Shown here: one piece after another, positions 28,541-33,585 of the stretch | How positions within the stretch are numbered: the stretch's first letter is position 1 | Layout of the letters: each line of letters starts with the position of its first letter | Origin: a virus | Length of the DNA: 33,585 nucleotides | Direction: 5' to 3' (one strand) | IMG/VR virus record: IMGVR_UViG_3300048009_000147 | Span: 1 to 33,585 of that record | Notes under the pieces: generated by a model | Seen by the model: the letters and a program-made list of their open reading frames with translations, nothing else | Database searches by the model: none | What the model was told of the DNA's origin: nothing | Program-made: the position numbers and the translations under genes

Positions 28541-29496
28541 TATCCACCACCACCGCTGTAGGACGATCCTGAGGATCCTGATGTCTGACCACTAGAAGAT
28601 CCAGCAGATCCATATTGGTTAGTTTCAGTTGTATCCATCTGTCCTGCCTGCTCAATAGTAGCACTATTAGTGCCAGTAGAGACAGTAACTGCAACGGTGC
28701 TACCATCAGCAAGCACATCACCTTCAGAGATAGTAGGATCAGAAGATCCAAAGTTTCTGGAGGTGTATTCTGCTGAAGAGGAGAAGTCGATAGACGATGT
28801 TCTTCCCACAAGAGTCTCGTATGTGGGTTTGACGTTGGTAAATGCTTCTGCAACAACGTTAGAAGTCTTCTTAATGCCTGTAGCAGCATCAACTTCATTA
28901 GAAGGAAGGTATTCAACCAGTTTCTCAAATTCTTCAACGAATGCATCGATATATTGAGGTTTAAGGATGTGTATACCTCTCTTATAGTCATTCAATTGAG
29001 TTTCATAGTCATAATTGGAGACGGGTCTAATTAACTCTTCTCTAGGGATAACTGTGCCATCAGGTCTCTGGTATTGGAAGTCCTCTGGGACCTCAAATCC
29101 ATCTCTAAGGACTACATCACCCCTTGTGCTTTTAATTTCTTGTGTCACCCAGTGGTGGACACTCTCTACATGAGCAACACCATACTTACGGACCATGTGC
29201 TGATACATCTCCTGCTCACTCATAGGCCATTCATCATAGATGTTGATGATGTTATTAGTGAGGAGCACAACCCAATCATAGTCAACATCACCATATACCC
29301 TGTCAGCAATCTGCTCAGGTCTTTCATTATGTTGGATAATGTATTTTTCAAATCCAAGAATCACATCACTCAGATCATCTCTGATCTTAATACGACGAAA
29401 GAGATTCTTCGCTCTAACGTAAGGATCATTGCTACCTGTGCGATAACTTGATGTCCTTACGAATACATCTGGTAAGTAGGAGAAATAATTTGCCAT
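28537..29496 (-). CDS. 53: Baseplate wedge protein gp53
   Basis: 319 aa on the minus strand. The N-terminal 'NYFSYLPDV', 'DYDWVVLLTNNIINIYDEWP' (split: 'DYDWVVLLTNN', 'IYDEWPMS') and following region match T4 gp53, which links wedges around the hub. T4 gp53 is about 196 aa, so this version has an extra C-terminal part of roughly 120 residues ending in a Gly/Ser-rich tail ('SSSGQTSGSSGSS'). The ATG overlaps the gp48 stop (TAATG on the minus strand). The stop overlaps the convergent glutaredoxin-like gene. Confidence 0.9.
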   Translation of the reverse strand: MANYFSYLPDVFVRTSSYRTGSNDPYVRAKNLFRRIKIRDDLSDVILGFEKYIIQHNERPEQIADRVYGDVDYDWVVLLTNNIINIYDEWPMSEQEMYQHMVRKYGVAHVESVHHWVTQEIKSTRGDVVLRDGFEVPEDFQYQRPDGTVIPREELIRPVSNYDYETQLNDYKRGIHILKPQYIDAFVEEFEKLVEYLPSNEVDAATGIKKTSNVVAEAFTNVKPTYETLVGRTSSIDFSSSAEYTSRNFGSSDPTISEGDVLADGSTVAVTVSTGTNSATIEQAGQMDTTETNQYGSAGSSSGQTSGSSGSSYSGGGGY

Positions 29497-30407
29497 TAGT
29501 CTTCAAAGTTTTCGCGTGTGCGGTATTTGGTTTCTTGGAAAGTAAGAGTCATGTTATAGACAGCGAAACCGAAATCCTTTGATTCCATGCCAGGAATCTG
29601 GGTGCGAATTGCAGTTGAATCACCAAAGTCAACACTCATGTCTTGCAACACCATCTTGTGAGGGAATCGCATGAGTGTATTCATATATCCTTTTGCTGCA
29701 TTACCCTCACCCAATTCTTCTCTATCATCCTTAGAAACGTATCTAACAATTTCTGCCTTAAACTTATCAGGGATGAGCAACCAGTCGTTTCCTTCTTTTG
29801 CAGGGTGCATTGACTGTCTAAGAGAACTAATGATCTCATAGATTGTCTGCACATCAGCAGCACTCTTAGGCACAAAGGTAAACTTAAAACTATGAGAGAT
29901 AAACCCAACACCTTTGAAGAGCATCTCTTCATAAGGGTTGAATACTTTACCTTGCGTTATTTGGGAAAGGTCGTTAGAATCAATGTTAAACCCATAAGGT
30001 GACACTTCACCCACCGTCGTGTTGATGGCTGCAGCACCAATCTTAAATCCTAGAGCAGGTTTTGCTGCAGCTGCCGCTGCTGAAACATTTTTACCAATAT
30101 TGTCAAGAGATCCACCACTACCAACCACGTCAGCAGCAGCATCAAGTACTGCATTACCAACTGCACCAAGGTTTTTACCTTCATACTTGGCAGAATATCT
30201 TTCATTCAAACCAGGAGGAAGATATAGGTAGAGGGATTTTTGAATTCCACCACTTCCTTTATCACCTCTCTTTTGGTGTTTATAAATATTTAACTTAAGG
30301 TAGTCTATGACTTCCGTTGGGAAAGCAGCTTTATCTCTGATAGACGCTCTGGTGCTACCGCTGGTCCCTAACGGTTTGACCCTTGGAAATACTAAGGTTT
30401 CTGACAT
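29496..30407 (-). CDS. 48: Baseplate tail-tube cap protein gp48
   Basis: 303 aa on the minus strand. 'SLYLYLPPGLNERYSAKY' and the C-terminal strands 'FPHKMVLQDMSVDFG' and 'YNMTLTFQETK' match cyanomyovirus proteins annotated gp48, which caps the baseplate before tube growth. gp54 is the alternative, but a gp54-like gene is present at 31307. The Ala-rich stretch 'NVSAAAAAAKPA' is near residue 110. The start (CAT at 30405-30407) has no ribosome site, but it is the only plausible in-frame start before the conserved region. It shares CATG with the gp4 start on the other strand. Confidence 0.82.
   Translation of the reverse strand: MSETLVFPRVKPLGTSGSTRASIRDKAAFPTEVIDYLKLNIYKHQKRGDKGSGGIQKSLYLYLPPGLNERYSAKYEGKNLGAVGNAVLDAAADVVGSGGSLDNIGKNVSAAAAAAKPALGFKIGAAAINTTVGEVSPYGFNIDSNDLSQITQGKVFNPYEEMLFKGVGFISHSFKFTFVPKSAADVQTIYEIISSLRQSMHPAKEGNDWLLIPDKFKAEIVRYVSKDDREELGEGNAAKGYMNTLMRFPHKMVLQDMSVDFGDSTAIRTQIPGMESKDFGFAVYNMTLTFQETKYRTRENFED
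30281..30288 (+). promoter_or_regulatory. T4-type late promoter for gp4 (inside gp48)
   Basis: Exact TATAAATA on the plus strand, about 118 bp before the gp4 ATG and within the antisense coding region of gp48. The only obvious way to transcribe gp4-gp54-gp26 rightward across the island boundary. Confidence 0.65.
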
Positions 30408-30840
30408 GAGTTATTCGGGCAAATTCAGACCATCAAATAGACATAAGTATAAGGGTGATCCCACCAATATTATTTATAGGAGTTTGTGGGAAAGAAAGTT
30501 TATGGTCTGGTGTGATAAAAATGTAAACGTATTGGAGTGGGGCAGTGAAGAGATCGTTATTCCATACATCAGTCCTGTTGACAGTCGGATTCACCGCTAT
30601 TTTCCCGACTTCTACGTCAGAGCAAGAACTAGAAACGGAGGGACTCAGAAGTTCATTATCGAGGTTAAACCGAAGATACAGTGCTCGCCCCCGAAGCGCC
30701 CAAAGAGGCAGACTAAAAGATACATAACTGAAGTGAAAACTTACGGTGTCAACCAAGCAAAGTGGAAGGCAGCAAGAGAATACTGTAAGGATCGTCGTAT
30801 GGAATTCTTAGTACTTACTGAAAAAGAGTTAAACGTATGA
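30406..30840 (+). CDS. 4: Head completion protein gp4
   Basis: 144 aa (T4 gp4 is about 150). The ATG at 30406 follows TAAGG at good spacing and gives 'MSYSGKFRPSNRHKYKGD'. The core has 'RSLWERKFMVWCD', then 'YFPDFYVRA' (Pro-Asp) and 'KFIIEVKPK' (Glu-x-Lys), a TnsA-like PD-(D/E)XK layout as reported for this family. It is needed to finish DNA-filled heads. The start codon overlaps the gp48 start on the opposite strand. The stop overlaps the next ATG (ATGA). Confidence 0.88.
   Translation: MSYSGKFRPSNRHKYKGDPTNIIYRSLWERKFMVWCDKNVNVLEWGSEEIVIPYISPVDSRIHRYFPDFYVRARTRNGGTQKFIIEVKPKIQCSPPKRPKRQTKRYITEVKTYGVNQAKWKAAREYCKDRRMEFLVLTEKELNV
30471..30478 (-). promoter_or_regulatory. T4-type late promoter for gp48-gp53 (inside gp4)
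   Basis: The plus strand reads TATTTATA, so the minus strand reads exact TATAAATA, 64 bp upstream of the gp48 start and within gp4. It is the only minus-strand copy I noticed and lies exactly where the only minus-strand operon needs one. Confidence 0.7.
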
Positions 30841-31307
30841 GCATCTTCAGTGATGTCAAAGATCTTGCCGAAGGTAAGAGTCAATCCAAAGAGTGGTATC
30901 GCTCACAACTACAATTTGGTTTAGAGCCTTATGAAGGCACCTTTGCAGTTGGTGATATCATCTTCTTTGCGTATTCTGCTGCAACTGAGAAACTGTCATT
31001 TTATGACAGATTCCCTATGGTGCAGATATCCGATCTGGATAAACCAAACATGCAATTCTCAGGTGGTAACTTGCATTATCTACAACCATCAGCAAGAAGG
31101 ACGATTGCTGCACAGTGGTCTATGGGTAGTCCTGCTTATCCTGCCCGTTGCCATCATAAATACTTTATGTCAAATGCTACCAACGTCTATACTGTTAAAC
31201 CGATTGATCTGCAGGATATGACTCCATTGCCTATAGAGCAATTCTTATTTAATGCAGCAGGTCGCTGGATCGAAGTCCCTAGCAGTCACATCTGGAGTCG
31301 AGTTTAA
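30837..31307 (+). CDS. Conserved protein of unknown function (156 aa)
   Basis: Starts in an ATGA overlap with gp4. 'MSIFSDVKDLAEGKSQSKEW' opening, 'YDRFPMVQISD' and 'GGNLHYLQPSARR' are stretches I recall from cyanomyovirus proteins of unknown role. Beta-rich with three Cys and no membrane segment. Its place between gp4 and gp54 suggests a virion-assembly role. A CATAAATA late-like motif occurs inside it at 31155. Confidence 0.72.
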   Translation: MSIFSDVKDLAEGKSQSKEWYRSQLQFGLEPYEGTFAVGDIIFFAYSAATEKLSFYDRFPMVQISDLDKPNMQFSGGNLHYLQPSARRTIAAQWSMGSPAYPARCHHKYFMSNATNVYTVKPIDLQDMTPLPIEQFLFNAAGRWIEVPSSHIWSRV

Positions 31308-32059
31308 TGAGTTACAGAAATCCCAATAGTTTTCTCCGATTTGCTGATCTGGTCAGCAGTGGTGAGAAGGATATTGCAAAGTCGAATCTATTTTCGGTTG
31401 AGATCACTCTCCCCCCGATGTTGTATGCTCAGAGGATACAGCCTTCCTATAAGGAGCATTATGAGTCTATCAACTACTTCGCTGACAGTGTAACTATCCC
31501 TGCTAGAAGGATTAAGACACAATCAGTCAAGACTGTTGGTATGCCATATGACTATGCATATGGTCAGCAGAAGCAAGAAGTCCGAATGTCATTCATCATG
31601 ACAAAGGACATGTATCATCGTCAATTCTTTGAGAATTGGATGAATATGACTGCTAATGATGCTGAAAATAGAGTTACATTTTACGATGAATACACGTCAT
31701 CCATTCAGATCCTGAAGTGGGAGAATGCTGCTAACGTTGTATATAAAGGCACTGCTAATAATGGTGCTGGAAGACCAGTCCAGTTTGAGCAGAGGATGAA
31801 TAGATCCACTGCAGTCTGGCAAATGTATGGTGCATATCCCTTCGACATCTCAGCAATGTCTCTCAACAATGGTCCAGCAGATCTATTGAAGATTGATGTT
31901 GACTTCAAATATGAGAGATTCAGATTTGATACAGTTGCAGAGGACGTGTTATCATTCAAACCTGAAGTCAATGATAAAGTTATTCGTAACTTTGATGAGA
32001 TATTTGCTCGCTTAGGATTCTCTGCCGATCAAATAGATTCATCCTTCTTTGGCACCTAA
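31307..32059 (+). CDS. 54: Baseplate tail-tube initiator gp54
   Basis: 250 aa. The pattern 'KSNLFSVEITLPP', 'YFADSVTIPARRIKT' and 'QEVRMSFIMTKDM' resembles the tube-protein fold shared by gp19, gp48 and gp54 in T4-like phages. Starts on the last base of the previous stop (TAATG). It would form the platform where tail-tube polymerisation begins on the baseplate. gp48 would be the alternative name, but that is better matched by the minus-strand gene. Confidence 0.8.
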   Translation: MSYRNPNSFLRFADLVSSGEKDIAKSNLFSVEITLPPMLYAQRIQPSYKEHYESINYFADSVTIPARRIKTQSVKTVGMPYDYAYGQQKQEVRMSFIMTKDMYHRQFFENWMNMTANDAENRVTFYDEYTSSIQILKWENAANVVYKGTANNGAGRPVQFEQRMNRSTAVWQMYGAYPFDISAMSLNNGPADLLKIDVDFKYERFRFDTVAEDVLSFKPEVNDKVIRNFDEIFARLGFSADQIDSSFFGT

Positions 32060-32084: not shown

Positions 32085-32789
32085 ATGCCTTTACCTAAGC
32101 TCGCTATCCCCGAGTATGATTTGACGCTGCCTATCACTGGCACGAAAATCACATATAGACCTTTCCTCGTTAAGGAGGAAAAACTGCTGTATCTCGCTAT
32201 GGAGTCGCAAGACGACAAGCAGATGATCAAAGCAGTTAAGACCATCATCAGAAACTGCACCAACCTGAAAGGTAAGGTTGAAGATCTCGCAACCTTCGAG
32301 ATCGAATATATCTTCCTTCGCATCCGTGCTACTGCTGTCGGTGAAGCAAGTGAATTCAAGATCACCTGCCCTGATGATAATGAGACCCAAGTCGAAGTGA
32401 TGGTCCCTCTGAATGAAGTTGAGGTTGTTATTCCTGCAGATCATGAGAAGAAAATGCTTCTTGATGACAATGTAGGTATCGTTATGAAGTATCCGTCGAT
32501 TGATGTATTCATCAGTCAAAATATGTCGGATGATCCCAATATCGAGGATATCTTCGAGTTGGCAGCAGGGTGTATTGAAAGTGTTTACGATAAGGAAGAA
32601 GTCTATGACAACTTCACTAAGAAAGAAGCACTTGAATTCTTGGAAGACTTGAATTCCGAGCAGTTTGCTAAAGTCCAAAAATTCTTTGAGACTATGCCCA
32701 AACTATCATACACACTTGAAGTTGTTAACCCCAACACTAAAGTCGTATCTGATGTTGTGCTTGAAGGACTTGCAAGTTTTTTCGCATAG
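32085..32789 (+). CDS. 26: Baseplate hub assembly protein gp26 (likely tail-assembly chaperone)
   Basis: 234 aa (T4: about 208), ATG 32085 after ATGGAG. 'LTLPITGTKITYRPFLVKEEK' (seen as 'LPITGTKITYRPF' and 'VKEEKLLYLAMES') is the typical opening of the T4 baseplate hub family PF12322. Rich in acidic residues. The gene ends ...AGT TTT TTC GCA TAG; the heptamer T TTT TTC is a canonical -1 slippery site, and slippage would extend the protein by 65 residues into the next frame. This suggests gp26 is the short form of a G/GT-like chaperone pair. Confidence 0.9.
   Translation: MPLPKLAIPEYDLTLPITGTKITYRPFLVKEEKLLYLAMESQDDKQMIKAVKTIIRNCTNLKGKVEDLATFEIEYIFLRIRATAVGEASEFKITCPDDNETQVEVMVPLNEVEVVIPADHEKKMLLDDNVGIVMKYPSIDVFISQNMSDDPNIEDIFELAAGCIESVYDKEEVYDNFTKKEALEFLEDLNSEQFAKVQKFFETMPKLSYTLEVVNPNTKVVSDVVLEGLASFFA
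32777..32783 (+). promoter_or_regulatory. Predicted -1 ribosomal frameshift site T TTT TTC
   Basis: In the gp26 frame the codons are AGT TTT TTC GCA TAG, so T TTT TTC fits X XXY YYZ. AAGGA (32764-32768) lies 8 nt upstream, suitable as a stimulatory internal Shine-Dalgarno as in dnaX. Slipping -1 enters the frame 32783-32977 without a stop. Only a weak downstream stem is seen. Confidence 0.7.
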
Positions 32790-32980
32790 CCCTACTGCAC
32801 GATAGTCTTGAAAACTACTATAAAACAAACTTTGCTTTGATGCAGCACCACAAATATTCACTGACCGAGTTAGAGAATATGATACCGTGGGAACGTGATG
32901 TATATGTGAATCTTCTCCTCGCACACATTGCTGAGGAAGAAAGAAGGCAAAACCAAGATCAGTCACGCATGGCCCTCTAA
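32783..32980 (+). CDS. 51: gp51-like ORF, likely made as a gp26 frameshift fusion
   Basis: Open in the -1 frame relative to gp26, 65 residues from the slip site: 'IALLHDSLENYYKTNFALMQ' then 'HHKYSLTELENMIPWERDVY' and a Glu/Arg-rich helix. The conserved-looking part starts before the first ATG (32840, 46 aa), and no ATG, GTG or TTG precedes it until inside the slip region (only ATA 32786 and CTG 32795). Expression by -1 frameshift, giving a 298-aa fusion, is thus the simplest reading. I recall similar ORFs being named gp51, but T4 gp51 is much longer, so the name is uncertain. Stop overlaps the next ATG. Confidence 0.65.
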   Translation, partial: RIALLHDSLENYYKTNFALMQHHKYSLTELENMIPWERDVYVNLLLAHIAEEERRQNQDQSRMAL

Positions 32981-33585
32981 TGGCAGCAATCCGTAGTTTC
33001 GTAAAAATTCAACCGATAACTGGTAAGTCAGGTATCGCTAAAAACATGGATCAGGTGCGTAAAAGCATCAATCGCATGGGTAGCGTGACGGATGGCATTG
33101 CCAAGAGTTTTTATGATACGACTGAGCTTCTAAAGTTTGAAAAGGAGTATCTTTCAGACACTTCTAAGACAGAAGTCACGGAGATCAAGAAGAAATCAAA
33201 GAAGGATAAGACCAAGTGGACTACATCCATGCGGGATATCCGACGCACTTTCAGAAAGAAGAAACGTGCTCGCTTAGAAGATGAAGCAGAGAAGGGCGTA
33301 GAGGAAGGTAAAGAGGAAGGTAGAAAGGCGGTTGAGAAGCAGAAACCCAAGTTAAATATGCTTGGTGGATTCTTCAATGGTCTATTCAAAGTCTTCAAAT
33401 ATATGATTATATTTGGAGCATTAAACTGGTTAAGTAACCCCAAGAATGCTGAGAGTGCCGTAAAGGTATTCAAGATACTCTTTACCATAGGTAAGTTTGC
33501 ATTCAAAGTTACTAAATTTGGGGTTGGTCTGCTCCTTGATGGACTGACTAATGTAATTGGTAATTTTAAGGAAGAAGGTCCGATC
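32980..33585 (+). CDS. Tape-measure-like tail protein, N-terminal part (3' truncated)
   Basis: ATG 32980 overlaps the previous stop (TAATG). 202 residues are visible and the frame is open at the window end. It has a long charged helical region (about 65-122, rich in Lys/Glu/Arg), then two hydrophobic segments (about 128-150 and 162-190). This is typical of phage tail-length tape measures. Its place directly after a frameshifted chaperone-like pair fits lambda gpH. A gp29-type hub/tape measure is the T4 counterpart. The C-terminus is needed to confirm. Confidence 0.65.
   Translation, partial: MAAIRSFVKIQPITGKSGIAKNMDQVRKSINRMGSVTDGIAKSFYDTTELLKFEKEYLSDTSKTEVTEIKKKSKKDKTKWTTSMRDIRRTFRKKKRARLEDEAEKGVEEGKEEGRKAVEKQKPKLNMLGGFFNGLFKVFKYMIIFGALNWLSNPKNAESAVKVFKILFTIGKFAFKVTKFGVGLLLDGLTNVIGNFKEEGPI

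Follow-up and report, generated by a model that had tools for sequence, protein, structure and literature searches.

The 3' end of the gp26 gene in the virus record IMGVR_UViG_3300048009_000147 raises the question of whether the gp51-like reading frame that follows it in another frame is a separate gene or the second part of a single gene that is translated into two proteins by ribosomal slippage. The window, i.e., the whole stretch of 33,585 nucleotides analysed here, is a cyanomyovirus-type record of a marine T4-like phage; among named phages, Synechococcus phage S-WAM1 has the closest gp26 (67%). Comparison with relatives makes it very probable that ribosomes undergo programmed -1 frameshifting at 32777-32783 and thereby read from gp26 into the gp51-like -1 open reading frame (ORF), so that one gene would encode two proteins. 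This was the central claim of a sequence-only reading of the window, which the comparison strongly supports, and its heptamer, its 65-codon -1 frame and its predicted 298-aa fusion were reproduced at the same coordinates.

Slip site, reading frames and predicted products

The features of the locus are as follows:

31307..32059, + strand: tail tube protein gene, directly 5' of gp26 (phrog_45, E 4e-42; Pfam Phage_TTP_2, E 5.7e-9)
32085..32789, + strand: gp26, frame 0, putative short form of a tail assembly chaperone, 234 aa (PF12322 T4_baseplate, E 4.5e-69; phrog_150, E 3.8e-75)
32764..32768, + strand: AAGGA, proposed SD-like stimulator, 8 nt upstream of the heptamer; no better than chance in the window
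32777..32783, + strand: T TTT TTC slippery heptamer for a -1 slip, read from the sequence and invariant in 81/81 sequences
32783..32980, + strand: -1 frame extension, gp51-like tail of the predicted 298-aa fusion (phrog_634, E 4.1e-30), open in 81/81 sequences
32980..33585, + strand: following gene, which runs past the end of the window and is a possible tape measure (PHROG matches largely unknown or 'endolysin'; phrog_339, tape measure, only at E 0.06)

The gp26 gene ends GCA AGT TTT TTC GCA TAG (stop at 32787-32789), with T TTT TTC in the 0 frame as X XXY YYZ, two codons ahead of the stop. The -1 frame reads CGC ATA GCC CTA and continues for 65 codons up to TAA at 32978-32980. The family that its peptide matches, phrog_634, is labelled 'baseplate hub assembly catalyst', i.e., gp51. 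Moreover, the same peptide matches positions 237-276 in the C-terminal portion of phrog_150 (E 1.8e-5), which hints that fused versions are already present in the phrog_150 family. The junction peptides VVSDVVLEGLASFFR and IALLHDSLENYYK would be diagnostic of the fusion in the window.

According to the proposed mechanism, most ribosomes would terminate at TAG and release the 234-aa short form, while a minority would move back by one base on T TTT TTC and go on to add a gp51-type tail of 65 residues, giving the 298-aa long form. The two forms would act jointly as a tail assembly chaperone, as suggested by homology to T4 gp26 and gp51 and by a layout like that of lambda G/GT and P2 E/E'. The domain common to both forms would build a polymer around the tape measure or bind subunits of the tube, while contact with the tape measure or the hub would fall to the tail of the long form. 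Lambda G/GT and P2 E/E' are reportedly frameshifted tail assembly chaperones. No sequence relation to them is expected, however; the window has T6C where P2 has T6G, and many cyanophages differ further from both systems in having lineage-specific hairpins.

Conservation in relatives

The bare heptamer occurs in the window at chance frequency (6 occurrences vs. 5.95 expected) and, thus, the case must rest on conservation. Five in-frame XXXYYYZ sites were counted in the window ATG ORFs of at least 100 codons, and the gp26 site is the only one that lies within 60 nt of a stop or has a -1 extension of at least 30 codons.

The gp26–gp51 junctions were aligned in 81 sequences, namely the window and 80 IMG/VR relatives (49-99% identity) retrieved by peptide patterns that do not cover the slip site; these sequences are kin rather than independent trials, but they are spread over deep branches of the gp26 tree. 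T TTT TTC stands at the same position, and in the same relation to the -1 frame, in every one of them, no relative lacking the heptamer. The two terminal Phe codons are invariably TTT (81/81) and TTC (81/81), whereas Phe-Phe pairs elsewhere in these genes are coded TTC TTT (54), TTT TTT (25), TTC TTC (5), or TTT TTC (1), and Phe codons elsewhere comprise 631 TTT vs. 289 TTC. Given this usage, the terminal TTT TTC represents a constraint at the nucleotide level. The residue preceding Phe-Phe can be Ser, Ala, Asn, or Asp, and its codon always ends in T. Over the 17 codons past the site, the -1 frame is open in 81/81 sequences, the +1 frame in 6/81, and frame 0 in 0/81, and the -1 frame is conserved directly from the slip site onward.

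These results also bear on the suspicion that stop readthrough, a sequencing error, or a decayed gene is being mistaken for programmed slippage, which could be entertained because homopolymers are error-prone and the tail is short. The closure of frame 0 within 17 codons past the stop in all 81 sequences, together with the recurrence of the same frame relation in these sequences and in 19 named genomes, rules out readthrough and sequencing error, and the probability of this whole class of explanations is negligible.

Among the 20 named T4-like genomes sampled, which include other T4-like groups and cyanophages, 19 share the layout with T6C, T6G, or T7; they belong to Kyanoviridae, Pootjesviridae, Menderavirus, Schizotequatrovirus, Nanhuvirus, Otagovirus, and DLP6. 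T6C is found in S-N03, DLP6, OLIVR5, ORM_20, Mendera, ValKK3, D525, LPCS28, Astolliot, and cyanophages. T6G (T TTT TTG), the P2-type heptamer, precedes the gp26 stop in the rhizobial phages phiM9 (L112) and RHph_Y68 (L113), and at least seven T's occupy the site in HTVC008M and C48C1. An overlapping TGATG in phiM9 and RHph_Y68 is a possible additional gp51 start. Vibrio phage K397 (L090, 3060-3080) is the only sampled named genome without a T-run: its gp26 ends A CTT TTC AAG TAA, and a gp51-like peptide is nonetheless present downstream in the -1 frame.

Start codons in the -1 frame

A different reading of the locus would treat the -1 ORF as a gp51 gene in its own right, whose translation begins through reinitiation or coupling at an ATG immediately past the gp26 stop, with T6C being incidental. 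An in-frame ATG does lie 3-9 codons past the slip site in 68/81 sequences, overlapping TAATG or TGATG motifs occur in ValKK3, Mendera, and phiM9, and many GenBank records annotate gp51 with such a start. Nevertheless, the position of this ATG varies, while the heptamer is invariant. The early ATG is absent in 13/81 sequences (the window and 12 others), nine sequences (the window and eight relatives) have no start before codon 15, and the window has none before codon 18, the earliest ATG, GTG, or TTG past the site being TTG 32837 followed by ATG 32840, both within the conserved domain. Likewise, OLIVR5, ORM_20, LPCS28, and C48C1 have no start within the first 15 codons, and in T4 the tail is made only as a fusion to the gp26 domain. 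Reinitiation is a real rival for most relatives, not for the window, and as an explanation of the locus it is very improbable. The sequence-only reading had held that the -1 ORF has no start of its own, which is correct for the window, whereas most relatives have an early in-frame ATG; in-frame ATGs in homologues, which it had named as evidence against itself, are common, but at differing positions next to an unchanging heptamer.

Frameshifting would also make sense of the database records. GenBank gp51 starts are scattered among the named genomes, with those of S-RSM4 and HTVC008M falling inside the conserved domain, and no gp51 is annotated in S-WAM1, ACG-2014d, and ORM_20. The inconsistent, truncated, or missing annotation of cyanophage 'gp51' is explained if this peptide is, as seems probable, the frameshifted tail of gp26 instead of the product of a separate gene.

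Candidate stimulators of slippage

In 50-nt windows sliding along the 81 sequences, unusually low folding energy is confined to the interval of +10 to +60 relative to the slip site (mean z -2.15, with 46/81 below -2), the other windows having a mean z of -0.7 or weaker, except for the +130 window at -1.0. A null that preserves the -1 peptide strengthens the signal at +10 to +60 (mean z -2.57, 55/81 below -2) and leaves control windows at about -0.7. The first paired base lies 3-5 nt past the heptamer in 33 of 47 hairpin sequences, which is about the usual place of -1 slippage stimulators.

The stems vary between lineages and covary within them. In one group, the third base of an Ala codon and its partner occur as U-A (12), G-C (5), and A-U (3), the change of the partner altering the encoded residue (Glu, Ala, Val), and the covariation score of this group was reached by 0/500 shuffles; in a second group, 139/170 cells pair, vs. 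a maximum of 133 in 2000 shuffles. RNAalifold over all 81 sequences detected no single conserved downstream structure, and Rfam gave no match. The relatives L003, L029, L032, L033, and others have strong lineage-specific hairpins, which the window, L001, and L002 lack. In the window, no downstream hairpin is significant (z +0.2 to +0.9) and, therefore, the heptamer is the only signal identified for it.

Hairpins with z below -2 occur in 47/68 sequences with the early ATG vs. 0/13 without it (Fisher p 2e-6), an association that is confounded by descent and includes two supported independent pairs. Moreover, an ATG at codon 3 is paired in 82% of cases, vs. 51% for other codons at that place. These hairpins may serve as slippage stimulators, as a cover for the ATG, or as both. 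Joint evolution of hairpin and ATG was considered and set aside as suggestive, the independent pairs being too few. The same figures favour a reading in which both products are made, i.e., the fusion by slippage and, where the ATG exists, a free gp51 peptide, with the hairpin covering the ATG and setting the ratio. However, besides the shared descent of the sequences, OLIVR5, ORM_20, and S-RSM4 have the hairpin without an early ATG, and the window has neither, so that this reading is inapplicable to it. Production of both is compatible with slippage and not exclusive of it, and is judged rather improbable. The more specific idea that in most cyanomyoviruses the hairpin sets the chaperone frameshift and buries the internal ATG, thus fixing the proportions in which the short form, the fusion, and the free gp51 tail are made, is a possible but doubtful one; if it were true, phages like that of the window, without ATG and hairpin, would run an unregulated basic version.

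The AAGGA at 8 nt upstream of the heptamer had also been proposed to stimulate slippage. Its position was confirmed, but the proposed effect is not supported in the window, where anti-SD pairing (-5.8) is not above chance when compared with a synonymous-codon null (-6.0, rank 0.66). In relatives, GAG is used at the Glu of this site in 62/81 sequences vs. 14-41% at other conserved Glu columns, GAG-G is enriched, and anti-SD pairing is somewhat better than the null. This codon preference and better pairing across relatives make a weak stimulatory SD effect possible.

The same pair from two genes in T4

The short protein of the window belongs to the T4 gp26/gp51 family by its PF12322 match, and the long form would consist of the PF12322 domain plus a gp51-type tail. 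T4 gp51 (249 aa) also falls into PF12322 (E 4e-52) and carries at its C-terminus a tail matching phrog_634, while T4 gp26 matches PF12322 too and ends where a gp51-type tail would start. By sequence comparison, T4 gp26 and gp51 are paralogues, gp51 consisting of a gp26 domain and a tail that shares homology with the -1 peptide. A profile of the 81 -1 peptides matches gp51 of T4, Aeromonas 31, Proteus, and RB43 (4/4 tested, E 2e-9 to 1e-5), while no gp26 was matched and no decoy ORF fell below E 0.03. T4 thus has homologous short and long proteins, the long one carrying the tail type of the window -1 peptide. The difference is that T4 uses two separate, divergent genes and lacks the slippery run in gene 26, which retains Phe-Phe coded as TTC TTT, whereas the window has one gene and a predicted -1 slippage. 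Since T4 genes 26 and 51 lie on opposite strands, they cannot be joined by frameshifting. In RB43 (L098, 2501-3794), the gp51-like and gp26-like copies are adjacent and on the same strand, unlike the divergent T4 pair.

The copy number agrees with this division: T4-type genomes contain two full phrog_150 copies, and frameshift-type genomes one plus the tail. T4-type phages thus have the short and long forms as two genes; cyanophages would obtain both from one gene by slippage. Given this composition of gp51, T4 possesses as an ordinary protein the fusion that is predicted for cyanophages, which is in our view the strongest evidence that the fusion is the functional product. In an unrooted tree of the shared domain with some long branches, T4-type 26s and 51s fall into a single clade that excludes all frameshift-type sequences (98/96), which is consistent with a single duplication. 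The polarity with frameshifting first is favoured by taxonomy, since LPCS28 and ValKK3, which are frameshift-type, belong to the family of T4, but it is not proven because the tree is unrooted. One protein pair would therefore have two encodings, i.e., slippage in cyanophages, pelagiphages, rhizobial phages, and KVP40-type phages, and duplicated genes in T4-type phages, and such a double encoding provides a direct test of the purpose of the frameshift ratio.

Relation to published work

The gene identity and the frameshift principle are prior art, and the headline result is mostly known. In a review from 2010 (PMC3004832), gp26 and gp51 of T4 already appear under the hub assembly chaperones. 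Vladimirov, Gautam & Davidson 2022 (Virology 566:9-15), as cited in PRFect (PMC10885494) and in PMC12846349, identified these genes as tail assembly chaperone genes; according to the former, T4-like phages have a short gene copy and a long, fused one and, according to the latter, poly-T slippery sequences occur in the TAC-N genes of T4-like phages. The link between gp26/gp51 and tail assembly chaperones drawn in the sequence-only reading is thus right, although already published, and T4 realises it with two genes and not by frameshifting. With the principle published for T4-like phages, the window adds a new and well-supported example to a known phenomenon. The TAC locus of Vandenendeviridae and Andersonviridae, with a GTTTTT motif, likewise has a conserved poly-T -1 site ending TAC-N and an unbroken -1 frame; it concerns other phage families and was argued by the same comparative method (PMC12846349). 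What is left without a description in the literature searched, in which Vladimirov et al. 2022 was represented by papers citing it, is the lineage-specific, covarying hairpin 3-5 nt past the slip site.

Neighbouring genes and predicted folds

The expected layout, with a tail tube gene before and a tape measure after the pair, is present on its upstream side. Full homologues of the next gene have about 1039-1111 aa, and their tape-measure match is weak (phrog_167, E 0.003 at best), so that the identity of this gene as a tape measure, which the sequence-only reading had proposed, is unproven.

AF2 models of gp26 and of a T4-type gp51 both reach pLDDT 86, the former ending in a short helix and the latter in a helical tail. 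Foldseek searches against the PDB returned nothing significant for gp26 and nothing relevant for gp51; in the top PDB list for gp26, HK97 2ob9 is the only entry that is a tail assembly chaperone (prob 0.57, E 1.2, rmsd 3.4 over 56 columns). The gp26 and gp51 profiles found nothing relevant among sequences of solved structures, and NCBIfam gave no hits. The chaperone role is, thus, drawn from T4 genetics, the 2022 paper, and the gene layout, not from structure in this analysis. Against viral models, the gp26 model matches gp26-type proteins of many myophages.

Elsewhere in the window, at 30307-30407, the longest gp4-like ORF (30307-30840, + strand) overlaps the start of a gp48-like ORF (29496-30407, - strand). 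Its similarity to PHROGs starts at residue 34, which is a Met, so that the true gp4 start probably lies near 30406.
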